From: Clostridiales bacterium
Lineage (GTDB): Bacteria; Bacillota; Clostridia; Christensenellales; Borkfalkiaceae
Assembly: GCA_015069615.1 (NCBI GenBank)
Contig: SVIF01000016.1
Coordinates: 1 to 32,426, forward strand
Direction: 5' to 3'
Length of the DNA stretch: 32,426 nt
Shown: positions 11,429 to 32,426 of the stretch, in pieces
Numbering within the stretch: position 1 is the first letter of the stretch
Layout: the number at the start of each line of letters is the position of its first letter
Program-made: the position numbers and the translations under genes
Notes under the pieces: model-generated
The model's input: the letters and a program-made list of their open reading frames with translations, nothing else
Database searches by the model: none
What the model was told of the DNA's origin: nothing

Positions 11429-11572
11429 CGCTTTTCAAGGTGAAAAAACGCTGTTTTTATATAAAATATAAAATTTTGTGAAAAATATCACAAAACGCCA
11501 CAAAGAAGGCGGTTACAAAAAACAAAAGGCGGCAAAGATGCAAGCAAAAAACTAGAAAAATGCCACAAAAAA

Positions 11573-11691
11573 GGCGGGTTAGAACCAAGCAAGACAAGGC
11601 AAACGCGGATTTCACGAAGGGCGCATACTTTGCGTATGTAACCGAGTGAAAACGCAAGTTTAACACAGTATTGCGAAGGTTATAAACTGCC
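11573..11691. repeat. 119-bp imperfect palindromic repeat, copy 1
   Basis: The element begins GGCGGGTTAGAACC and ends AAGGTTATAAACTGCC. The two halves pair across their whole length: AAACGCGGATTTCAC on the left is complementary, with few mismatches, to the right-hand stretch around GTGAAAACGCAAGTTT. The centre is CATAC-TTTGC-GTATG. It is nearly identical to copy 2 (11747-11865) and shares its ends with copies 3 and 4. Any open frame through it is a by-product of the repeat. Confidence 0.8.
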
Positions 11692-11746
11692 GCAAATCTC
11701 ACCCCAAACTCGCTTTGGAACGACAGTTGCAAGAAAAAAATACTAA

Positions 11747-11865
11747 GGCGGGTTAGAACCAAGCAAGACAAGGCAAACGCGGATTTCACGAAGGGCGCAT
11801 ACTTAGCGTATGTAACCGAGCGGAAACGTAAGTTTAACAAAGTATTGCGCAGGTTATAACCCGCC
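11747..11865. repeat. 119-bp imperfect palindromic repeat, copy 2
   Basis: Same length as copy 1 with only scattered differences. The ends are the best inverted repeats of the family (GGCGGGTTA...TAACCCGCC). It lies directly downstream of the tuf terminator and 55 bp from copy 1. The rest of the 11429-11935 gap holds no gene: only an A-rich stretch with a TTTTGTG/CACAAAA hairpin near 11475 and the spacer between the copies. Confidence 0.8.
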
Positions 11866-20258: not shown

Positions 20259-23200
20259 TTATTCTTCGTCAAAGTCAAGGTCAAGGTCGTCTGCGTCTTC
20301 ATAATCGTCCAAATCAGACAAATCTTCGTCCGCAAAAGATTCGTTAAAATCAAAGTCTTGATCAAAATCTTCGTCCGCAAAGATAGAAACTTCGGTATTT
20401 TCCGTAGCTTCTTCCACGGCGTCTTTTTCGTCAAAGCCAACGATTTCCACTTCCTTGGTCTTTTCTTCACGATGCATGCTGCCGTAATCGGGTTCGTCAT
20501 CCATCAAATCGCGCAAGTTGATTTCTTCGCGGTTTTCGGTAAGAACCTTCATATCTAAAGCAAGGGATTGCAATTCTTTTAACAGCACCTTGAACGATTC
20601 GGGAATACCCGGTTCGCTAATGTTAGTGCCTTTTACGATGGATTCGTACGTTTTTACACGACCAACCACGTCGTCCGACTTAACGGTAAGAATTTCTTGC
20701 AAGATGTGTGCCGCGCCGTATGCTTCCAGTGCCCAAACTTCCATTTCACCGAATCTTTGGCCACCGAATTGTGCCTTACCACCCAAGGGTTGTTGGGTAA
20801 CTAAGGAGTACGGACCAGTACTTCTTGCGTGCATCTTATCGTCTACCAAGTGGTGCAACTTAATCATGTACATCTGCCCAACGGTTACGCGGTTTTCAAA
20901 GGGCATACCCGTTCTGCCGTCGTATACCTGAATTTTACCGTCTACTTCCCCGTTCGGGTTCAAGATGTTGTTTTCGGCCATAAGACCGCGAATATCCGCT
21001 TCGGTTGCACTGTCAAATACGGGGGTGGCAATCTTCCAACCCAGTTGTTTACATACCAAACCTAAGTGAACTTCAAGCACCTGCCCGATATTCATACGCG
21101 AAGGTACGCCCAAGGGGTTCAGTACGATTTGTAAGGGGGTGCCGTCCGCAAGGAAAGGCATATCCGCTTTGGGAAGAATCCGCGAGATAACACCCTTGTT
21201 ACCGTGGCGGCCCGCCATTTTATCCCCTACGGAAATCTTACGTTTTTGCGCGATATATACGCGCACTAATTTTCTTACGCCGGGCGCAAGTTCTTCGCTG
21301 TTAGCGCGGGTAAAGATTTTTACGTCTACAACCACACCGCCTTCCCCGTGAGGAACGCGCAAGGAAGTATCTCTTACTTCCCTAGCCTTTTCACCGAAGA
21401 TAGCGCGAAGCAAGCGTTCTTCGGGGGTGAGTTCGGTTTCGCCCTTGGGGGTAACTTTACCAACAAGGATATCGCCCGAACCAACTTCCGCACCGATACG
21501 AACGATACCTTCTTCGTCCAAATCTTTTAGCGCGTCTTCCCCAACGTTGGGAATATCGCGGGTAATTTCTTCGTTACCAAGTTTGGTATCGCGGGCTTCG
21601 GTTTCGTGTTCTTCAATGTGGATGGAAGTAAACACGTCGTCGCGCACCAGTTCTTCGGAAAGCAGGATTGCGTCTTCGTAGTTGTAACCTTCCCAGGTCA
21701 TAAAGCCGATTAAGATGTTTTTACCAAGCGCAAGTTCGCCGTCCTTAGTGGAAGGACCATCTGCAAGGATCATCCCCTTGGTAACCTTATCCCCCGTGCA
21801 AACGATGGGGCGTTGGTTTACGCAAGTGCCTTGGTTACTGCGTTGGAATTTCTTTAAGTAATATACGTGATCCAAACCGCCTTCCGCGGGCGTTACGCGA
21901 ATTTCCGAACCGTCTACGTACGAAACGATGCCGTCTTCTTTCGCAATTACCATAACACCGCTATCGTAAGCGATTTTCGCTTCAATACCCGTTGCTACGT
22001 CCGCCGTTTGGGTGGTTAAAAGGGGTACTGCCTGACGTTGCATGTTAGAGCCCATAAGCGCACGGTTGGTATCGTCGTTTTCCAAGAAAGGAATCAACGC
22101 GGTTGCAACCGAGATAAGCTGCTTGGGCGATACGTCCATAAAGTCAATTTCTTGCTTAGGAACTTCGGTAATTACGTCCCTACGGCGGCAGGGTACGCGG
22201 TCGTTGATAAAGCAACCGTTTTCATCCAAAGGTTCGTTTGCTTCGCCGATGGTGTACTTATCTTCTTCGTCCGCAGTCATATAAATTACTTCGTCCGTCA
22301 CTGCACCGCGTTCTTTATCTACTTTGCGGTAAGCCGCTTCAATAAAGCCGTATTCGTTAACCTTTGCAAACGCGGAAAGCGAAGTGATAAGACCAATGTT
22401 TTGACCTTCGGGCGTTTCAATAGGACAGATTCTGCCGTAGTGGGTGTGGTGAATATCGCGCACGTCAAAAGTTGCGCGGTCGCGGTTCAAACCGCCCGGG
22501 CCAAGTGCGGAAAGTTTACGCTTGTGGGTAAGTTCCGCAATGGGGTTGGTTTGATCCATAAATTGAGAAAGCTGAGAAGAACCGAAGAATTCCTTAATTG
22601 CGGAAGAAACGGGTCTTACGTTAATCAAGCTTTGGGGGGTGATGTTTTCGCTATCTTGCGTCATCATTCTTTCCTTGATAACGCGTTCCAAGCGGGACAT
22701 ACCGATACGGAATTGATTTTGCAAAAGTTCCCCAACGCTTCTTACGCGGCGGTTGCCAAGGTGGTCAATGTTGTCCACACTGCCGATTTCCACGTTCAAA
22801 TCCAAGTTGTTGGAAACGGTTGCAACGATATCGTCCAAAGTAATGCACTTGGGGCAAAGGCGCATAATGCGCTGTTTTACTTGGTCTAATTCTTCGTCGT
22901 CCGCTAAAACGGCACCGTCTACCTTCTTCACGCGAAGTAAGGAATCAATTTCTTCAGCAGTTTTGCCTTGCAATAATTCCACGTAAGCGGGATAGTATAC
23001 GTATTCGGTCAAACCGTCGTAATCTTTGTAGTCAAGCCCGGTTACGTCCTTAAAGTTTACGGTGTTGTTACCGATCATTTTATGGCTAGCGTAAAGACCG
23101 GGGATTTCGTTTACGGGAGTGATGCGCGCGTAATGATAACCGCTTTCCATCATCGCGGTAGCCGAAGCAAGGGAGAATTCATCCCCTTCCGCAACTACCA

Positions 23201-24752
23201 ATCTACCGCCTGCATCTTTATCCACGCCACACGCTTCCGCAAAGGTGAACGCTTCGCTTTCCAAAGCGGAAAGCAAACGCAAGTTCATTTCGTAAACGGT
23301 GGGTTTTTCTTCCGCGTCGCGAACGCGAACTACGATATTTTCAATATCTTCCACGCGCTTTAACTTGCCGTTTTCGCCCTTGGTGTAAACTTCTAAGGAA
23401 ATATCCGAAGTTAAAGCTTTTACAAAATCCGAAGTCAGCATTCTGCCTACTTCAAATTCGGTTTCCTTGCCATCCTTAACCACAACCAAGGTTTCGGCAA
23501 GAACGCGAACGGCGTTATCCGCCAAACTTTCTACTTCTTTGCCCGATTCTAAGAACAAGGATTTAGCACACTTGCTTAAGTTCAAGGGATAGGAAGTATC
23601 CGCAAGCTGTACTTTAATCGTACGGTCTGCGCCCGCTTTTACCAAAGCCTTTAACAGTTTGGGGGTTACCACTTCCCCGTCTTCGGTAACCAGCGTGCCG
23701 TTTTTGAACGCGGAATAAACGCGAAGATCTAAACCGAAGGTCGCTTTCCCGGGAACGCGAACAACAACCGCGTTCACGCCTGCGTTTTGCAGTTCCTTAG
23801 CGCGCGCTTCGGAAAGCTTTTCGCCCGCTTCGGCAAGTAGGGCGCCATCGTTACCGTAAACGTGTTCGGCAAGGGTTTTACCCGCAATACGGGTGGAAAG
23901 GCAAAGCTTTAAATCGTACTTATGTCTACCAACTCTAGAAAGGTCGTATCTCTTCCCGTCGTAGAACATTTGGTCTACTTGCTTTTTCTGCGTTTCTTCG
24001 TTGGGCATTTCGCCGGGGCGAATACGCTTATACAGTTCTCTTCTACCGTAAGCAACCGAAGCACCTGCATCCTTAAGGGCGGTACGCCAAATCATTTCGT
24101 CCCCGTTAAACAAATTCAACAGTTCTTCGTCGCTACCAAAGCCCAAAGAACGAAGAAGTACGGAAGCGGTGATTTTTCTGGTACGGTCTACGTGTACCCA
24201 AAGTACGCCTTGGGAATCTTGTTCAAATTCCAGCCATGCGCCGCGGTTGGGAATAACGGTGGTGGAATATAACATTCTGCCCGCCTTATCCATTTGCGAA
24301 CCGTTGTAAACGCCAGGCGAACGAACGAGCTGCGATACGATAACGCGTTCCGCACCGTTGATGATGAAAGAACCGTTATCCGTCATCAAGGGGAAATCCC
24401 CCATGAAAACTTCTTGTTCGATTGCTTCGTTTCCGCGGTCTTTGTTTACAAGACGCACTTTCACTTTTAAAGGAACGGCGTAGGTTGCGTCCCTTTCCCT
24501 GCATTCTTTTTCGTCATACTTGGGGGTATCGCCCAAGGAATGGCTTAAAAAACGCAGTTCAAAATGCTGTTCGGAAAAATCGCAGATAGGCGAAAAATCA
24601 CGCAGCACTTCGTTAATCCCTTTTTTGATAAAGGTTTCGTAGGAATCCTTTTGCACCTCAATAAGGTAAGGAATTTCCTGTACTTCCTTAATCTTTCCAA
24701 AGGATTTTCTTTCCGTGTTGCCGTATTTGATGGTCGGTAAAATACGAGTCAT
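20259..24752 (-). CDS. rpoB: DNA-directed RNA polymerase subunit beta with large internal expansion and acidic tail
   Basis: About 1497 residues from the ATG at 24752. An in-frame GTG 9 bases upstream is rejected because it overlaps the AGGAG site. Core motifs are RSPGVY (about 144-149), the rifampicin pocket [14 protein letters not shown]...[13 protein letters not shown] (725-755; Asp734, His744 and Ser749 are all wild type), [14 protein letters not shown] and [13 protein letters not shown]. Two features are odd. Between [10 protein letters not shown] (269-278) and NIDHLGNRR (661-669) lie nearly 400 residues, where B. subtilis has roughly 130. The extra part appears to be degenerate repeats of a module like [17 protein letters not shown]. 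The last 60 or so residues form a very acidic Asp/Glu/Phe tail. The rplJ-rplL genes that normally precede rpoB are not here. Confidence 0.97.
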
Positions 24753-24760
24753 TGAACACA

Positions 24761-24765
24761 CTCCT
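24761..24765 (-). promoter_or_regulatory. Ribosome binding site that selects the rpoB ATG
   Basis: AGGAG on the minus strand lies 8 bases before the ATG at 24752. The alternative GTG (24761-24759) shares a base with this site and cannot use it. Confidence 0.75.
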
Positions 24766-26531: not shown

Positions 26532-26568
26532 AGCCCGTCAAAGTAGGTTGGCGAAGAATGACAAGTTG
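26532..26568. repeat. 37-bp module, copy A
   Basis: AGCCCGTCAAAGTAGG...GACAAGTTG occurs here and at 29608-29644 with one mismatch. Here it is followed by GGCT, so AGCCC/GGGCT and GTCA/TGAC can pair. In both places it lies about 15-60 bp from other repeat material and downstream of a glycosidase paralog. Confidence 0.8.
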
Positions 26569-26579
26569 GGCTGAAAATG

Positions 26580-26602
26580 TGTTGCGCCGCTTATAACGTG
26601 CC
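26580..26602. repeat. Solo right end of the palindromic repeat at the 3' end of a CDS
   Basis: TGTTGCGCCGCTTATAACG matches the right end of copies 3 and 4 (ATTGCGCCGCTTATAAAGC). It overlaps the stop codon and final codons (Gly-Thr-Leu-stop) of the upstream glycosidase gene. No left end or palindrome body is present. Confidence 0.65.
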
Positions 26603-29518
26603 GTTATCCCACGCGTCGTTTTGTTCTTTCATCAAAGTAAGCGCTATGCGTGCGCGCCCCCAATGGTTTTCGGAGAAGCTGAATTCGGTACCCGTAGTTC
26701 TATCCCCCCAAATACTCCAATCGGGACAATGCGGAAGGGCAAAACTACCCACACCGTTTTGGTTACTTAAATTCACGTTATATTCAAAGTTCCAATGCAA
26801 AATTAGGGGCATACCCGTTGCGCGTTGGGCTTTGGATACCGCCATGTACCATTCTAACATATCTTGATAGGTCATATCGGGGTAAACGCCGTTTTCTTCC
26901 GCGCAGGTTTCGGATAATCCCGCGTTGAACTCATCCCCCACCATCACCATACCGTTGGAAAGGGTTGCGTTGCGGTATTTACTGTGCTGAATTGCCGTTT
27001 CACCGTAGGTATAACTCATACCCGATTCCCCAACGTAGCAGGTGGCTTTGATATCCTTACTCATACGGATAATAAACGCGTAGTATTCTTCAATGGTATC
27101 CATATCAATGCGGTCGCTATACGCTCCGCCCGTGGTTTCCGCCGTTACGCCGTAACTATCCATCATGGCTTGCACGGAAGCGGGGTCTTCGTAATACTGT
27201 TTTCTAAGGTCGCTGGCAATTTTATCTTTTTGTTCGTCCGAAATATTTCCGGCCGCCTTTTGCACCTTGTCGATCAGTTGAACGAGTTCGGCAGAGAAAT
27301 ACAAGTGTACGGAAACGGCGTTCATCCCGTCAGGATTCAGCAAATCCAACATTTCACGGTGTTGCACTTCGGTATCGTGCCCCCAACTATTTTCGTTGCG
27401 TTGGTGCCATTGGGAATTACGCAAAATGCTATCCCCACTACCGATTACGCGGTTGTAACCCACGTTGTAGCTTTCAATCAAGGCTACCCAATCTTTACGG
27501 AAGGAAGCCGCGTGGTTGGAGGTAATTTCGCTACCGCCGTGGTCAAGCGAAAGGTTCATTTCGTTGCCCATTTCCCACATAAACAGCGCGGGGTGATCGT
27601 TTAATTCTTCCAAGAAACGGGTTTGGTATGCCATAGACCAGTTATACGCTTCGGTGCCTTTAATAAACACGTCCTTCGGGGTGGCGCTACCCTTGCTTTC
27701 ATCGTAGAAAATACCCGTAATGATTTCTTCCTTGGGGCATTCCTTACCCGCGTGTACGTGGTATTCGTTTTTCGCCCACAGTTGGTATGCGCTTGCGGAG
27801 AAGAATACCGAAGGAATAATCCCGATATTCAGTTCGGCCGCTTTGTTGAATAAGCGCTTCCAAAGGTACCACGCTTCATCCGCTTTTTTGCCAATGGAAC
27901 CGTCCTCCTCTAAATAGCACGCTTCCCACCACCAACCGTAGAAGAATCCACCCGCAACGCGGATTGCTTTACAGTTATATTTGGCAAGTTCTTCAAGTCC
28001 GCGCAGGCTATCTTGCACCTTTTCTTCCACGATATCGCCTACTTCGTAGTTCGCAGCGTAATCCCCCATCAGGTCTTCACCGCCTACGTAGAAGCAGTTT
28101 TGCCATAGGTCGAAGTAGTTTACACCCTGCCACTCAATCACTTTGCCGTTGTAGGTCATATCGTAGTTGCCGTTCAGTTTTAAGCCGCCGCTAGTACCCG
28201 TTAACAGGTTGGTGGTTAGGGGCTTTAAGCTTAAAAATCCATCTTGCGCGCTGATATTATAGCAATCGGATTCGGGGTATTCGGTTACGGTAATCGCGCC
28301 GCCTTCTTCCGCGTAGCGATCTACTTCGGTGGAAAGAATTAAATCCCCCGTAAACACCGCAAGCCCCTCGCTTTCAGTAGGCGCTTCCCCAAAGTAGAAA
28401 ATATCGTCCCCCTTTAAGCCCGTTACCGTGTAGCTGAATTCGGGATGGGGCGCGTATAATTCCTTTTGGATATTATCCGCTTTAATGATTAAACGCGCCT
28501 TTCTCACGGTTAATACCGCGGAAAGAGAACGCGATGCGTCCCCAAGGGTTACGGTTGCCGTTACCCCGTATTTGCCGGGCTTTTTTACACCCGTTTCTAC
28601 GTCGTACACGCCCGCGTTATCTTCTAAGGTGGTTTCGGGGTTTACCGCATAAACCACTTGCGCGCCCTCGGGTAAATTTTTGACTTCTAACTTAATATTT
28701 TCACCGTTATACGTTTTGGTGGAGTTGTTAAAGGTTACTTCGCTAAGTAATTCTTCATCCGTGGGGCCAACGGGTTCGTCGGGCTCGGTGGGAACGCTGG
28801 GCGTTACCGAAGGAATTACCGAAGGAATTGCGCTGGGAATTACGGAAGGCGCAATGCTAGGCGCTACCGAAGGAATTGCGCTAGGAATTACGGAAGGCGC
28901 AATGCTAGGAGCAACACTAGGAACTACCGAAGGCGCAATGCTAGGAATTACGCTAGGTACTACCGAAGGCACAACCGAAGGAATTACGCTGGGCGCAACA
29001 CTAGGAACTACCGAGGGTACAACGCTAGGAATTACGCTAGGTTCTACCGAAGGAATTACGCTAGGCGTTACCGAAGGTGCTACACTAGGCACAACCGAAG
29101 GAATAACGCTGGGAATTACGCTAGGTACTACCGAAGGAATTACGCTAGGCTCAACGCTAGGAGCAACCGTAGGAATAACGCTAGGAGCAACCGTAGGAAT
29201 AACGCTAGGCGCTACCGAAGGTGCTACACTAGGCACAACCGAAGGAATAACGCTGGGAATTACGCTAGGTTCTACCGAAGGTACAACGCTAGGTGCTACC
29301 GAAGGCACTACGCTAGGTACTACCGAAGGAAGTACGGAAGGCACAACCGAAGGCGCCACCGAAGGCGCAACCGTGGGTTGCGTGCTAACGCTTACCGAAA
29401 CCGAAGGGGTTACGGTAAGGGTTGGGATTACCGAAGGGGTAGGATCTTTCCTCATAGAACAAGCCGTAAACGTAAAAGCAAGCGCTACGAAAGAAATAAG
29501 GGCAACCAGTTTTTTCAT
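26591..29518 (-). CDS. Surface lipoprotein: Pro-Ser-Val stalk, MBG-like domains and GH-A-type glycoside hydrolase
   Basis: 975 residues, ATG with AAGGAG 7 bases upstream. Residues 1-20 are a lipoprotein signal ending FTAC (Cys20). Residues 48-243 are 49 tandem four-residue units, mostly PSV-x (x = Ile, Val, Ala, Glu, Thr), a likely wall-spanning stalk. Residues about 261-433 are two MBG/YDG-type beta domains (TKTYNGENIKL; ADNIQKELYAPHPEFSYTVTGLKGDD). Residues about 435-960 resemble a clan GH-A TIM barrel: WQGVNYFDLWQ, SLRGLEELAKYNCKAIRV, ALFMWEMGNEMN (probable acid/base Glu653) and CYVGESG (probable nucleophile Glu831). The closest family is probably GH5-like, but the substrate is unknown. 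It is paralogous to the next gene upstream. Its last codons coincide with a repeat end. Confidence 0.8.
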   Translation of the reverse strand: MKKLVALISFVALAFTFTACSMRKDPTPSVIPTLTVTPSVSVSVSTQPTVAPSVAPSVVPSVLPSVVPSVVPSVAPSVVPSVEPSVIPSVIPSVVPSVAPSVAPSVIPTVAPSVIPTVAPSVEPSVIPSVVPSVIPSVIPSVVPSVAPSVTPSVIPSVEPSVIPSVVPSVVPSVAPSVIPSVVPSVVPSVIPSIAPSVVPSVAPSIAPSVIPSAIPSVAPSIAPSVIPSAIPSVIPSVTPSVPTEPDEPVGPTDEELLSEVTFNNSTKTYNGENIKLEVKNLPEGAQVVYAVNPETTLEDNAGVYDVETGVKKPGKYGVTATVTLGDASRSLSAVLTVRKARLIIKADNIQKELYAPHPEFSYTVTGLKGDDIFYFGEAPTESEGLAVFTGDLILSTEVDRYAEEGGAITVTEYPESDCYNISAQDGFLSLKPLTTNLLTGTSGGLKLNGNYDMTYNGKVIEWQGVNYFDLWQNCFYVGGEDLMGDYAANYEVGDIVEEKVQDSLRGLEELAKYNCKAIRVAGGFFYGWWWEACYLEEDGSIGKKADEAWYLWKRLFNKAAELNIGIIPSVFFSASAYQLWAKNEYHVHAGKECPKEEIITGIFYDESKGSATPKDVFIKGTEAYNWSMAYQTRFLEELNDHPALFMWEMGNEMNLSLDHGGSEITSNHAASFRKDWVALIESYNVGYNRVIGSGDSILRNSQWHQRNENSWGHDTEVQHREMLDLLNPDGMNAVSVHLYFSAELVQLIDKVQKAAGNISDEQKDKIASDLRKQYYEDPASVQAMMDSYGVTAETTGGAYSDRIDMDTIEEYYAFIIRMSKDIKATCYVGESGMSYTYGETAIQHSKYRNATLSNGMVMVGDEFNAGLSETCAEENGVYPDMTYQDMLEWYMAVSKAQRATGMPLILHWNFEYNVNLSNQNGVGSFALPHCPDWSIWGDRTTGTEFSFSENHWGRARIALTLMKEQNDAWDNGTL
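28790..29377 (-). repeat. 12-bp tandem array encoding the PSV-x stalk
   Basis: 49 in-frame 12-bp units encode PSV-x. Serine codons alternate between AGC/AGT and TCG/TCC types. Longer exact blocks are nested within: 29069-29126 and 29213-29270 are identical over 58 bp and offset by 144 bp, exactly 12 units, indicating recent block duplication. Confidence 0.9.
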
Positions 29519-29607: not shown

Positions 29608-29644
29608 AGCCCGTCAAAGTAGGTAGGCGAAGAATGACAAGTTG
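29608..29644. repeat. 37-bp module, copy B
   Basis: It differs by one base from 26532-26568. It marks the left border of the repeat block downstream of the partial glycosidase paralog. Confidence 0.8.
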
Positions 29645-29670: not shown

Positions 29671-29756
29671 TATTATGCTAAAAAAGCGTAGGAACGAGTT
29701 ATGCAAGGCTCGCTATTATGCTAAGAAAGCGTAGAAACAAGTTATGCAAGGCTCGC
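29671..29756. repeat. Two tandem 43-bp hairpin modules
   Basis: Units 29671-29713 and 29714-29756 start TATTATGCTAA and end ATGCAAGGCTCGC with a few differences. Each contains CGAG (or CAAG) and CTCG arms around TTATGCAAGG. A third copy precedes palindromic copy 4 (29899-29933). Confidence 0.8.
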
Positions 29757-29767
29757 ACTTTCTCAAA

Positions 29768-29887
29768 GGCGGTTTAGAAGCAAGCAAGACAAGGAAGTCC
29801 GAGCGGTTTGGGGCGGAAGTATACTTATCGTATTCAACGGTCCAAACCGCGACGGCTGACACAGTATTGCGCCGCTTATAAAGCGCC
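29768..29887. repeat. 120-bp imperfect palindromic repeat, copy 3
   Basis: It has the same ends as copies 1 and 2 (GGCGGTTTAGAAGCAAGCAAG at the left, AGTATTGCGCCGCTTATAA at the right) but a different middle. The middle is again self-complementary: GCGGTTTGG on the left faces CCAAACCGC on the right in the same register from both ends. Confidence 0.8.
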
Positions 29888-29898
29888 GTAAAAGATGG

Positions 29899-29941
29899 TA
29901 AGAAAGCGTAGAAACGAGTTATGCAAGGCTCGCACTTTCTC
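29899..29941. repeat. 43-bp hairpin module, third copy
   Basis: TAAGAAAGCGTAGAAACGAG...CTCGCACTTTCTC repeats the unit at 29722-29764. Together with the palindrome that follows, it forms a tandem unit of about 175 bp present twice (29722-29887 and 29899-30063). Confidence 0.8.
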
Positions 29942-29944
29942 AAA

Positions 29945-30063
29945 GGCGGATTAGAAGCAAGCAAGACAAGGCTCGCTTAGGAATTCAGACGAGATAAACC
30001 TTGTTGGTTATCGAGGTTGAATTCCGTAGCAGTAACGAAGTATTGCGCCGCTTATAAAGCGCC
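29945..30063. repeat. 119-bp imperfect palindromic repeat, copy 4
   Basis: Conserved ends again, with a third middle sequence: GGAATTCA on the left faces TGAATTCC on the right. A central GATAAACC/GGTTATC region surrounds TTGTT. It ends two bases before the stop codon of the paralogous glycosidase gene. Confidence 0.8.
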
Positions 30064-30065
30064 GC

Positions 30066-32426
30066 TTAATTGTAAGCGTTGGGGTGCGCCTCATCCCACG
30101 CATCATTCGCCGCCTTCACTTCGGTAAGCATACAAAGCGCCTTGCCAAAGTGGCTTAAAGATACGCTGAATTCGGTGGCGGTGCTTCTATCACCCCAATA
30201 ATTCAGTTGGTTAATTTTTTTATCGTCGTTCAAGCGGTTAATGTTAGCGGAATATTCGTAGTTCCAGTACAATACTAAGGGTAAGCCCGTTGCTTGTTGC
30301 GCTTTGCTTACCGCCATATAGTAATCCAGCATATCTTGGTAGGTGGCATCCGGATAATATCCGTTTTCTTCTGCGTAGGTTTCGGAAAGCCCGGGGTTTA
30401 ACTTATCCCCTTCAATCACCAACCCGTTGGAAAGCACGCTGTTGCGGTACTTACTGTGCTGTAAAACGGTTTCGCCGTAGGTAAACCCGGGGCCGCATTC
30501 CCCAACGTAGCAAGTGGACTTAAAGTTTTTAGAAGCGGTAATTAAGGTGTCAAACAACTCCTCTAGCGTATCGATGTCCGTCATTACGTCGTTAAACTTA
30601 TCCGTAAAGCCTTGGAATACGCCGTTTTCATCTACGTAGCCCCTTTCCTTCATAATTGCTACAACGGAATCGGGGTCTTCGTAATACTTTTTACGCCATT
30701 CGCTGGCAATTGCGTCTAATTCCGCGTTGGTGGGATTGTTGTGCGTTAGCTTATACTCCGCTTGTTCTGCGGAAATCAACACGTTTAAGGAAGTATTGGT
30801 GTAAATGTGCGAAGAAACCGCGGTGATGCCGGGGTTTAATTCTTCCAAAATTTGCGTGTGCTGTCTGTAGGTATCGTGCGTCCATCCGCCGCCGTGTCTT
30901 AAATTGTATTGCGAGCCACGAAGGACTGCATCCCCACTACCAATCACACGGTTATAGCCAATGTTTGCCGCAGCAATTTGTTCTACCCAAATTCTTCTAC
31001 CGCGAATCAGCACGTCCGAAGTCAACCCGTCTTCGCTATGGTCAACCGCCAAGTTCCATTCGTTGCCTTGTTCCCACATAAACAACGCGGGGTGATCGTT
31101 AAAGTTTTCAATCAATAAATTTTGATACCACTGCGTAAATTTGAAGGATTCGGAATCGGTGTTGATTAAACAATCCTCCAAAGTTTCCCCTGGGAACAGT
31201 TTATATTGGTTATGCGTCCAGAACACCGAAGGAATTAAGCCGATTCCCACCGATGCCGCCTTATTGAAGAGACGATGCATCACATATATTGCTTCTTCTG
31301 CCTTTTTACCAACTTGGAAGGAGTCGGTTGCTTCATCGTAATCCATAAAGCAAGATTGCCACCAGTTGTGATAGAAGAAGGACGCGCTGAAACGAATTGC
31401 TTTTACGTTGTAGGAAGCAAGTTCTTCCAAACCGCGCAAACTTTCTTGTACCCAATCTTCTACAATCTTACCCGTGTTATAGTTAAAGCAGTTTTGCCAC
31501 AAGTCAAAGTAGTTTACACCCTGCCAAGTAACCACTTGACCGTTGTAGGTCATTTCGTAGTTCCCGTTCATCTTTAGCCCGCCACTGGTACCGCGAATCA
31601 GTTTAGTAACTAAGGGCGCAATGGTTAAAGACCCTTCGGTAAATCTAATGTTATAGCAGTCGGATTCGGGAACGGAGATTGCGGTAATACTGCCACCGAT
31701 TTCCGAATAACGGTCTACACTGGCTTCTAATATTAAATCCCCCGTAAATACGGCGTAAGCAAAGGTTTTGGGATTGAAAGGTTCTTCTTCGGGAACTTCT
31801 TCTGGATTTTCGCCTTCAGGAATTTCGCCTTCGGGGGTTTCACCGCCTTCTTCCACATTTTCTTCGGGTGCAGGTTCGGGCGTGGGTAACAGTTCTTCGG
31901 GAATTTCCCCCAAATAGAACACGTCGTCCCCCTTTAATCCCGTGATTGTATAAGTAAATTCGGGATGAGGCGCGTATAATTCCTTTTGCACGTTATCAAT
32001 TGCAATAACTAAAGTTGTCTTTCTAATGGTTAATTTTGCGGAAAGTTCACGGGTAAGTCCGTTCATATGAACGGTGGCTTTTACAGCGTATATGCCTGGC
32101 TTTTTTACGCCTAATTCTAAATCGTATACGCCCGCGTTATCTAAACCGGAGTTCGCTTCGTCTATTTCATAAACAACTTCTGCACCTACGGGCAAATTAG
32201 ACACCGTAAGTTTTTGGTATTCCCCGTTATAGTTTTTGCTAACGTTATTAAACGTTACCAACGCCATTTTTTCTTCATCCGTAAGGGGAACGCTAGGCAC
32301 AACACTGGGGATAACACTGGGTTCTACGCTGGGTTGAACGGAAGGTATTACGCTGGGAATTACCGAAGGGGTAACACTAGGTGCAATACTGGGTGCAACG
32401 CTGGGTTCTACGCTGGGCTGAACGGA
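30066..32426 (-). CDS. Paralogous Pro-Ser-Val-stalk glycoside hydrolase, N-terminus beyond the window
   Basis: 786 residues are visible; the frame is open to the right edge, so the signal peptide lies outside. The visible part starts inside a PSV-x stalk (with Gln and Glu as well as Ile, Val, Ala), which continues to about 32289. MBG-like beta domains follow (NYNGEYQKL; DNVQKELYAPHPEFTYTITGLKGDD). They contain an extra Pro/Glu-rich acidic insert (EELLPTPEPAPEE ... EEVPEEEP) absent from the neighbour. The GH-A-like barrel has GVNYFDLWQNCF, ALFMWEQGNEWN (acid/base Glu) and CYVGECGPG (nucleophile Glu). It is clearly homologous to the 26591-29518 gene along its length, implying tandem duplication, but well diverged. 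An apparent GTG start at 32300 lies inside the repeat and is not real. Confidence 0.8.
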   Translation of the reverse strand, partial: SVQPSVEPSVAPSIAPSVTPSVIPSVIPSVQPSVEPSVIPSVVPSVPLTDEEKMALVTFNNVSKNYNGEYQKLTVSNLPVGAEVVYEIDEANSGLDNAGVYDLELGVKKPGIYAVKATVHMNGLTRELSAKLTIRKTTLVIAIDNVQKELYAPHPEFTYTITGLKGDDVFYLGEIPEELLPTPEPAPEENVEEGGETPEGEIPEGENPEEVPEEEPFNPKTFAYAVFTGDLILEASVDRYSEIGGSITAISVPESDCYNIRFTEGSLTIAPLVTKLIRGTSGGLKMNGNYEMTYNGQVVTWQGVNYFDLWQNCFNYNTGKIVEDWVQESLRGLEELASYNVKAIRFSASFFYHNWWQSCFMDYDEATDSFQVGKKAEEAIYVMHRLFNKAASVGIGLIPSVFWTHNQYKLFPGETLEDCLINTDSESFKFTQWYQNLLIENFNDHPALFMWEQGNEWNLAVDHSEDGLTSDVLIRGRRIWVEQIAAANIGYNRVIGSGDAVLRGSQYNLRHGGGWTHDTYRQHTQILEELNPGITAVSSHIYTNTSLNVLISAEQAEYKLTHNNPTNAELDAIASEWRKKYYEDPDSVVAIMKERGYVDENGVFQGFTDKFNDVMTDIDTLEELFDTLITASKNFKSTCYVGECGPGFTYGETVLQHSKYRNSVLSNGLVIEGDKLNPGLSETYAEENGYYPDATYQDMLDYYMAVSKAQQATGLPLVLYWNYEYSANINRLNDDKKINQLNYWGDRSTATEFSVSLSHFGKALCMLTEVKAANDAWDEAHPNAYN
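32289..32426 (-). repeat. 12-bp tandem array encoding the second PSV-x stalk (partial)
   Basis: About 11 PSV-x units are visible before the frame leaves the window. TCCGTTCAGCCCAGCGTAGA and a near copy (TCCGTTCAACCC...) show block repetition like that in the neighbouring gene. Confidence 0.85.

Follow-up and report, generated by a model that had tools for sequence, protein, structure and literature searches.

A family of roughly 120-nt hairpins, possibly mobile, that adjoins stop codons in Clostridia and carries outer arms matching the host gene end

Results

A tandem hairpin cluster next to a stop codon

The window, by which we mean the whole stretch of DNA analyzed (32,426 nt, all of contig C12), belongs to a rumen or gut Clostridia genome of 1.43 Mb in 41 contigs that is 86% complete and, like every genome used here, is a metagenome-assembled genome. 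Near its right end lies a cluster of palindromic units (Table 1), the last of which, H2, ends 2 nt from the stop codon of an oppositely oriented gene. The original prediction described a compound unit, a 43-bp hairpin module joined to a 119-bp palindrome, that occurs twice with nearly identical modules and unrelated palindrome middles, and as a description of the sequence this was borne out. The left flanks (29718-29794 and 29895-29971) are 96% identical, the right flanks (29863-29888 and 30039-30064) are 100% identical, and the small modules agree at 98%, while the middles (29795-29862, 68 nt; 29972-30038, 67 nt) are 51% identical, which is the chance level (54 ± 4% for shuffled middles). These middles form the apical parts of H1 and H2; the basal left strand runs to 29794 in H1 and to 29971 in H2, and the basal right strand and arm begin at 29863 and 30039, respectively. 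Both large palindromes also fold better than shuffled sequences (z = -6.9 and -2.8).

The small module, in contrast, is not a separate part, but a truncated left half of the same hairpin, and on their own the two modules fold no better than shuffles (z = 0.1 and -1.0). We rejected the 43-bp module as an independent hairpin on the basis of this poor fold and of weak arm pairing among the truncated pieces, only some of which keep short matching arms (pairing of 4.0, compared to 3.65 when permuted, with 23 of 2000 permutations as high).

Table 1. Hairpins, hairpin fragments and the adjoining host gene in the window
Feature	Position	Strand	Evidence and remarks
Full hairpin, class B, downstream of the EF-Tu gene	11572..11691	+	R1 match 48.0 bits; in alignment A2
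Second class B hairpin, in tandem with 11572..11691	11746..11865	+	R1 match 48.5 bits
Right-half-only fragment	26573..26604	+	Overlaps 3' end of gene 26591-29518 (-)
Degenerate leading copy, truncated left half	29679..29713	+	91% to the left half at 29722; right half absent after it
Small module copy 1, truncated left half	29722..29766	+	Left arm TAAGAAAG, short matching right piece CTTTCTC
Full hairpin H1, apical class C	29767..29889	+	R1 match 62.5 bits; fold z -6.9
Small module copy 2, truncated left half	29899..29943	+	98% identity to copy 1
Full hairpin H2, apical class A	29944..30066	+	R1 match 126.9 bits; fold z -2.8
Host gene whose stop codon adjoins the cluster; large protein	30066..32300	-	Weak MBG_3 match

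Some other features of the window were noted. A terminator lies between the EF-Tu stop codon (70 nt off) and the hairpin at 11746..11865. The neighboring genes 26591-29518 (-) and 30066-32426 (-) each encode a large protein that contains long low-complexity (PSVxPSV)n repeats (with a PT repeat, PF04886, in the first), and the two look like paralogs. A second dispersed repeat, CCCGTCAAAGTAGGTAGGCGAAGAATGACA, occurs near several hairpin clusters, in the window at 29611-29642 and 26533-26566, and also at loci L036, L047, L053 and L055. The rpoB frame at 20259-24761 (-) encodes 1500 amino acids, long for a beta subunit, perhaps owing to an insertion; its Pfam Rpb2_1 match is stretched over residues 33-719.

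One hairpin design with exchangeable apical classes

The tandem pair is not isolated. Blast searches recovered 89 pieces of the unit genome-wide, and a covariance model built on class A (R1) gave 56 matches over many contigs, with many truncated copies besides; the family is non-coding, multi-copy and dispersed, as classical MITEs are. R1 also finds classes B and C, through the basal stem that they share with class A. We aligned the genome copies by class (A1, 31 of class A; A2, 12 of class B; A3, 8 of class C) and found a single design of ~120 nt. Its outermost 12-13 bp form a terminal stem whose sequence is free; inside this lies a basal stem in which mismatches are conserved, topped by an apical stem that comes in at least three exchangeable classes. 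Some of the mismatches are invariant, and one of these, a G.A, marks the border between the basal stem and the terminal arms. Each unit is a single hairpin, and all units within a cluster have one orientation. In A1, 25 of 37 base pairs have changed on both sides with pairing kept, 95.9% of the cells are paired (compared to 75.2% in shuffled alignments and 32-41% with partners slid by one to three columns), and the covariation score is 0.57 compared to 0.19. Judged from these compensated changes, the hairpin structure is under constraint.

The family extends well beyond the source genome. Model matches were found in 191 of 301 sampled genomes of the bacterial family and in 15 of 18 genera, as well as in further families of the order. 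The left half has an exact match in two named records, both of them metagenome-assembled Clostridia genomes, one from roe deer caecum. Rfam yielded no match at the gathering score in the window, and none that was convincing when four loci were searched with E values up to 1.

The genome-wide alignments bear on a further claim of the original prediction, that the middle may have been replaced or diversified while the flanks were kept. That the flanks are kept and the middles differ is clear, and with all units aligned, unrelated apical classes prove to be interchangeable on one shared basal stem (the nearest relative of H1, at 94%, is a blast match in the same genome at C19:14267). Moreover, terminal arms are more alike between neighboring units than between distant ones (0.67 vs. 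0.55, P = 0.003), a result independent of the automatic labels of classes B and C, which were partly mixed in this comparison of flanks, middles and arms. In our view the best reading of H1 and H2 is a local expansion in tandem, with duplication of the truncated half and the arms and with apical parts that belong to different classes. Perhaps a local duplication came first and one middle was then exchanged, or perhaps a hairpin of a different class arrived and acquired the local arms; since the latter would look identical, a replaced middle is reasonable but unproven.

Truncation among the copies is one-sided. In the loci read from the source genome, basal pieces outside full hairpins are left halves in 44 cases and right halves in 8 (P = 4e-7), and most of the left-only pieces end at the foot of the apical stem (at ..GGCTCGC). 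This asymmetry suggests that hairpins are copied from the left end and that copying may stall at the apical stem.

Hairpins adjoin stop codons in a fixed orientation

In the source genome, with cluster ends set by eye, the right end of ~31 of 40 clusters falls within -21 to +12 nt of the stop codon of an oppositely oriented gene (29 when two short frames are not counted). Among relatives, in which the ends of 50 loci were defined by the model, 34 lie within -25 to +15 nt of a stop codon that ends a frame of 90 amino acids or more, compared to 1 of 50 in the mirrored test (P = 5e-13), and the position agrees at some loci of other families as well. Thus, hairpins adjoin stop codons in a fixed orientation. 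The host genes are ordinary housekeeping genes with no common function. EF-Tu was confirmed by Pfam; from their translations, read by eye, we take others to encode RecR, a 23S rRNA methyltransferase, formate-THF ligase, AlaRS, QueA, PyrE, RidA and GAPDH, among others.

We considered that the core might have inserted into the loop of a pre-existing terminator hairpin, the old terminator stem becoming the arms, given that the arms are self-complementary, gene-specific and located 3' of genes. In a 400-kb sample of the genome that served as our gene-end background, however, ordinary terminators start at a median of 24 nt past the stop codon, while hairpin arms start at or inside it, and at queA the arm is coding sequence (see below). 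Since ordinary terminators start so far downstream, the hairpins do not simply sit in terminator loops; we regard this origin as very improbable and reject it.

The outer arm matches the end of the host gene

Although the terminal stem is free in sequence, its left and right arms pair much better within a locus than between loci: pairing is 0.79 with the arm's own partner compared to 0.42 with permuted partners in the source genome, and 0.81 compared to 0.50 in relatives, in which the loci are the best matches to a model that includes 8-9 bp of the arm, a choice that somewhat favors arm pairing.

The test case for this match is a single gene, queA, which was found in 118 of 121 genomes and whose 3' ends we read in 40 of these and at further loci. 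A hairpin occupies the queA end in 24 genomes from seven genera. The queA stop codon is nearly always placed at the core start (TTA followed directly by TAAAC), although in one genome (G064) it lies 9 nt further on. Far arms are complementary to the last 12 bases before the core of their own genome, which at queA are coding: 10.3 Watson-Crick pairs of 12 are formed, compared to 7.1 when arms are exchanged among queA loci (the maximum of 5000 permutations was 8.4). From position 13 on, pairing is at background, a sharp edge at 12-13 nt that recurs, at 12-14 nt, at other loci in the source genome and its relatives. This edge, which lies beyond the model, and the permutation tests are out of reach of the locus-choice bias.

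Occupancy of the site is patchy. Many queA ends are empty, including that of a genome of the same genus (G001), some carry decayed remnants, and the hairpins that are present differ in apical class. The dinucleotide TA precedes the stop codon in 22 of 24 cases where the queA site is filled and in 3 of 12 where it is empty, which may reflect target choice or may be borne by the element. At the queA ends of G070, G087 and G073 (L178, L179 and L186), a first hairpin is followed by a second copy of the queA end and then by another hairpin, an arrangement that looks like tandem growth taking in a piece of the gene end.

One explanation of the arm is guided insertion, in which the 12-13 nt arm base pairs with the template strand of the target's last codons before insertion. 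Here, single-stranded DNA or RNA of the antisense strand would pair with the site, wobble allowed, and an enzyme acting in trans would insert it; if true, the hairpin would be mobile and sequence-guided while encoding no protein itself. The fixed arm length with its sharp edge, the tolerance of wobble pairs and the fact that the arm follows its target at queA across seven genera all speak for such a guide. Against it, a similar arm recurs at many loci in some genomes (GGCGG in the source genome, AAAGGC in G302), so that arms can also travel with the element; neighboring units of different class have arms in common, which fits local templating better than independent guides; and we know of no guide-using enzyme in the source genome. 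We consider guided insertion quite unlikely, and the model of an antisense-strand guide used by a trans-acting enzyme deserves equally little confidence. At L031, L037 and L044, several proteins end in ..GG or ..GGL, residues encoded by the GGCGG arm, as if their last codons had been replaced by the element.

Strand of the folded form

Among the non-Watson-Crick pairs at arm positions 3-7, read on the element's plus strand, which is antisense to the gene, G.T outnumbers A.C by 50 to 13 (P = 3e-6), and queA arms have 19 and 6, counts that represent sequences rather than independent events. The consensus fold energy is ~9-11 kcal/mol lower on the antisense strand in all four alignments; in the core, the G.T excess is evident in A1 but faint or lacking in A3 and A4. 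From the wobble bias and the fold energies, folding is probably not maintained on the mRNA strand. The folded molecule is more likely to be single-stranded DNA, or else an antisense RNA, of which we saw no other sign.

Integron attC sites lie at gene 3' ends, fold from the antisense strand, and have a variable apical part and R boxes. The hairpins share the first three properties, in that they occupy the same place relative to the gene, appear to fold on the same strand and vary apically, but their neighbors are housekeeping genes rather than cassettes and their clusters are far apart. Furthermore, in A1 and at queA the base of the hairpin is free sequence, with no conserved R boxes (AAC...GTT). 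We treat membership among attC sites as refuted, and even attC-like recombination sites seem to us extremely improbable.

We also considered a cis-acting element of the 3'-UTR, kept for an mRNA function (stability, attenuation or processing) and spread by descent and local duplication instead of by movement. The fixed orientation and position at gene 3' ends and the occurrence at the same nucleotide of queA in seven genera are what such an element would show, and ERIC sequences in transcripts alter mRNA stability in an orientation-dependent manner (PMC2229807). However, the wobble pairs and the lower fold energy are on the antisense strand, not the mRNA, queA is occupied patchily even within a genus, with remnants and differing apical classes, and the host genes have no common function. 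This explanation is unlikely, in our estimation.

Discussion

On balance, we lean toward the view that these are non-autonomous mobile, or formerly mobile, DNA hairpins of ~120 nt that settle directly at stop codons with a fixed orientation. Dispersal is shown by cores as much as 94% alike at genes unrelated to one another, and turnover by patchy occupancy with remnants. The relevant form would be a single strand, antisense to the gene, mobilized by an enzyme acting in trans; copies would arise by polar copying from the left end, often stopping at the foot of the apical stem and leaving the small modules. Hairpin template-switch synthesis, selection for the folded form, or both might create or maintain the complementarity between the arms and the local sequence. 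Counted against mobility, we saw neither a target duplication nor a pair of close strains offering an exact empty site, and old inheritance could also account for a hairpin at one and the same queA nucleotide in seven genera.

Three origins of the matched arm can be put forward: it could act as a guide in choosing the site, it could be copied from the site in inverted form by snap-back or template-switch synthesis, or it could result from selection on pairing. Given the G.T bias, pairing seems to be maintained once the hairpin is in place, in keeping with selection, with or without template-switch copying. All three options leave the arm length of 12-13 bp without account, a point against the reading that we favor.

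The searches for a mobilizing enzyme also count against mobility. In the source genome (86% complete), we found no match to PF01797 (Y1/RAYT), no reverse transcriptase and no DDE_3/IS630 transposase. PF01797 has a match in 45 of 121 relatives, many high-copy relatives being without one, and neither Y1 transposases nor reverse transcriptases follow hairpin copy number among relatives.

Several known families resemble these hairpins in part. BOX elements of Streptococcus pneumoniae (boxA-boxB-boxC) are likewise multi-copy interspersed stem-loops assembled from exchangeable parts, frequently close to the 3' side of a gene, and are thought to be non-autonomous mobile elements (PMC3049150), but the family described here is one hairpin with three apical classes and an arm matching the host gene end, and no distinct module is repeated inside one element, the repeated small piece being a truncated half. 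ERIC, RUP and Correia (NEMIS) elements are MITE-like, of ~100-130 nt, with a full-length palindromic fold and many copies beside genes (PMC2229807); their terminal inverted repeats are fixed and target duplications accompany most of them, whereas the outer 12-13 bp of the hairpins are complementary but free and follow the site, only the inner basal stem being conserved. REPINs, which go with a RAYT (TnpA-REP, a Y1/HUH tyrosine transposase) in the genome, are also palindromic repeats that spread in genomes and fold single-stranded with mismatches (PMC3116915, PMC8266576). REPINs, however, are inverted pairs of 20-40 bp palindromes with a GTAG or CGTC tag, whereas the hairpins, at ~120 nt, are far longer, have NNAG at that position, and lie at stop codons in one orientation in a source genome without Y1/RAYT. 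Finally, template-switch mutation at quasi-palindromes is a known replication error by which reverse-complement arms are created or mended in a single step, and could explain the matched arms (PMC8794818), but it is a mutation process rather than an element, and leaves the conserved core, the fixed arm length and the stop-codon position without account.

In the literature that we searched, no target-matched arm appears to be described for BOX, ERIC, RUP, Correia or REPIN elements. Our limited search, which is weak evidence, also found no such family in Clostridia. The hairpins are small interspersed palindromic repeats that apparently fall outside all of these families and are undescribed. To our knowledge, there is no counterpart to an outer arm that is a fixed-length inverted match to the host gene end, always in one orientation. 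Small palindromic repeats are common in bacteria, and it is the matched arm that sets this family apart. Because the queA site is filled in some species and empty in others, guided insertion, template-switch copying and selection can be tested directly against one another.
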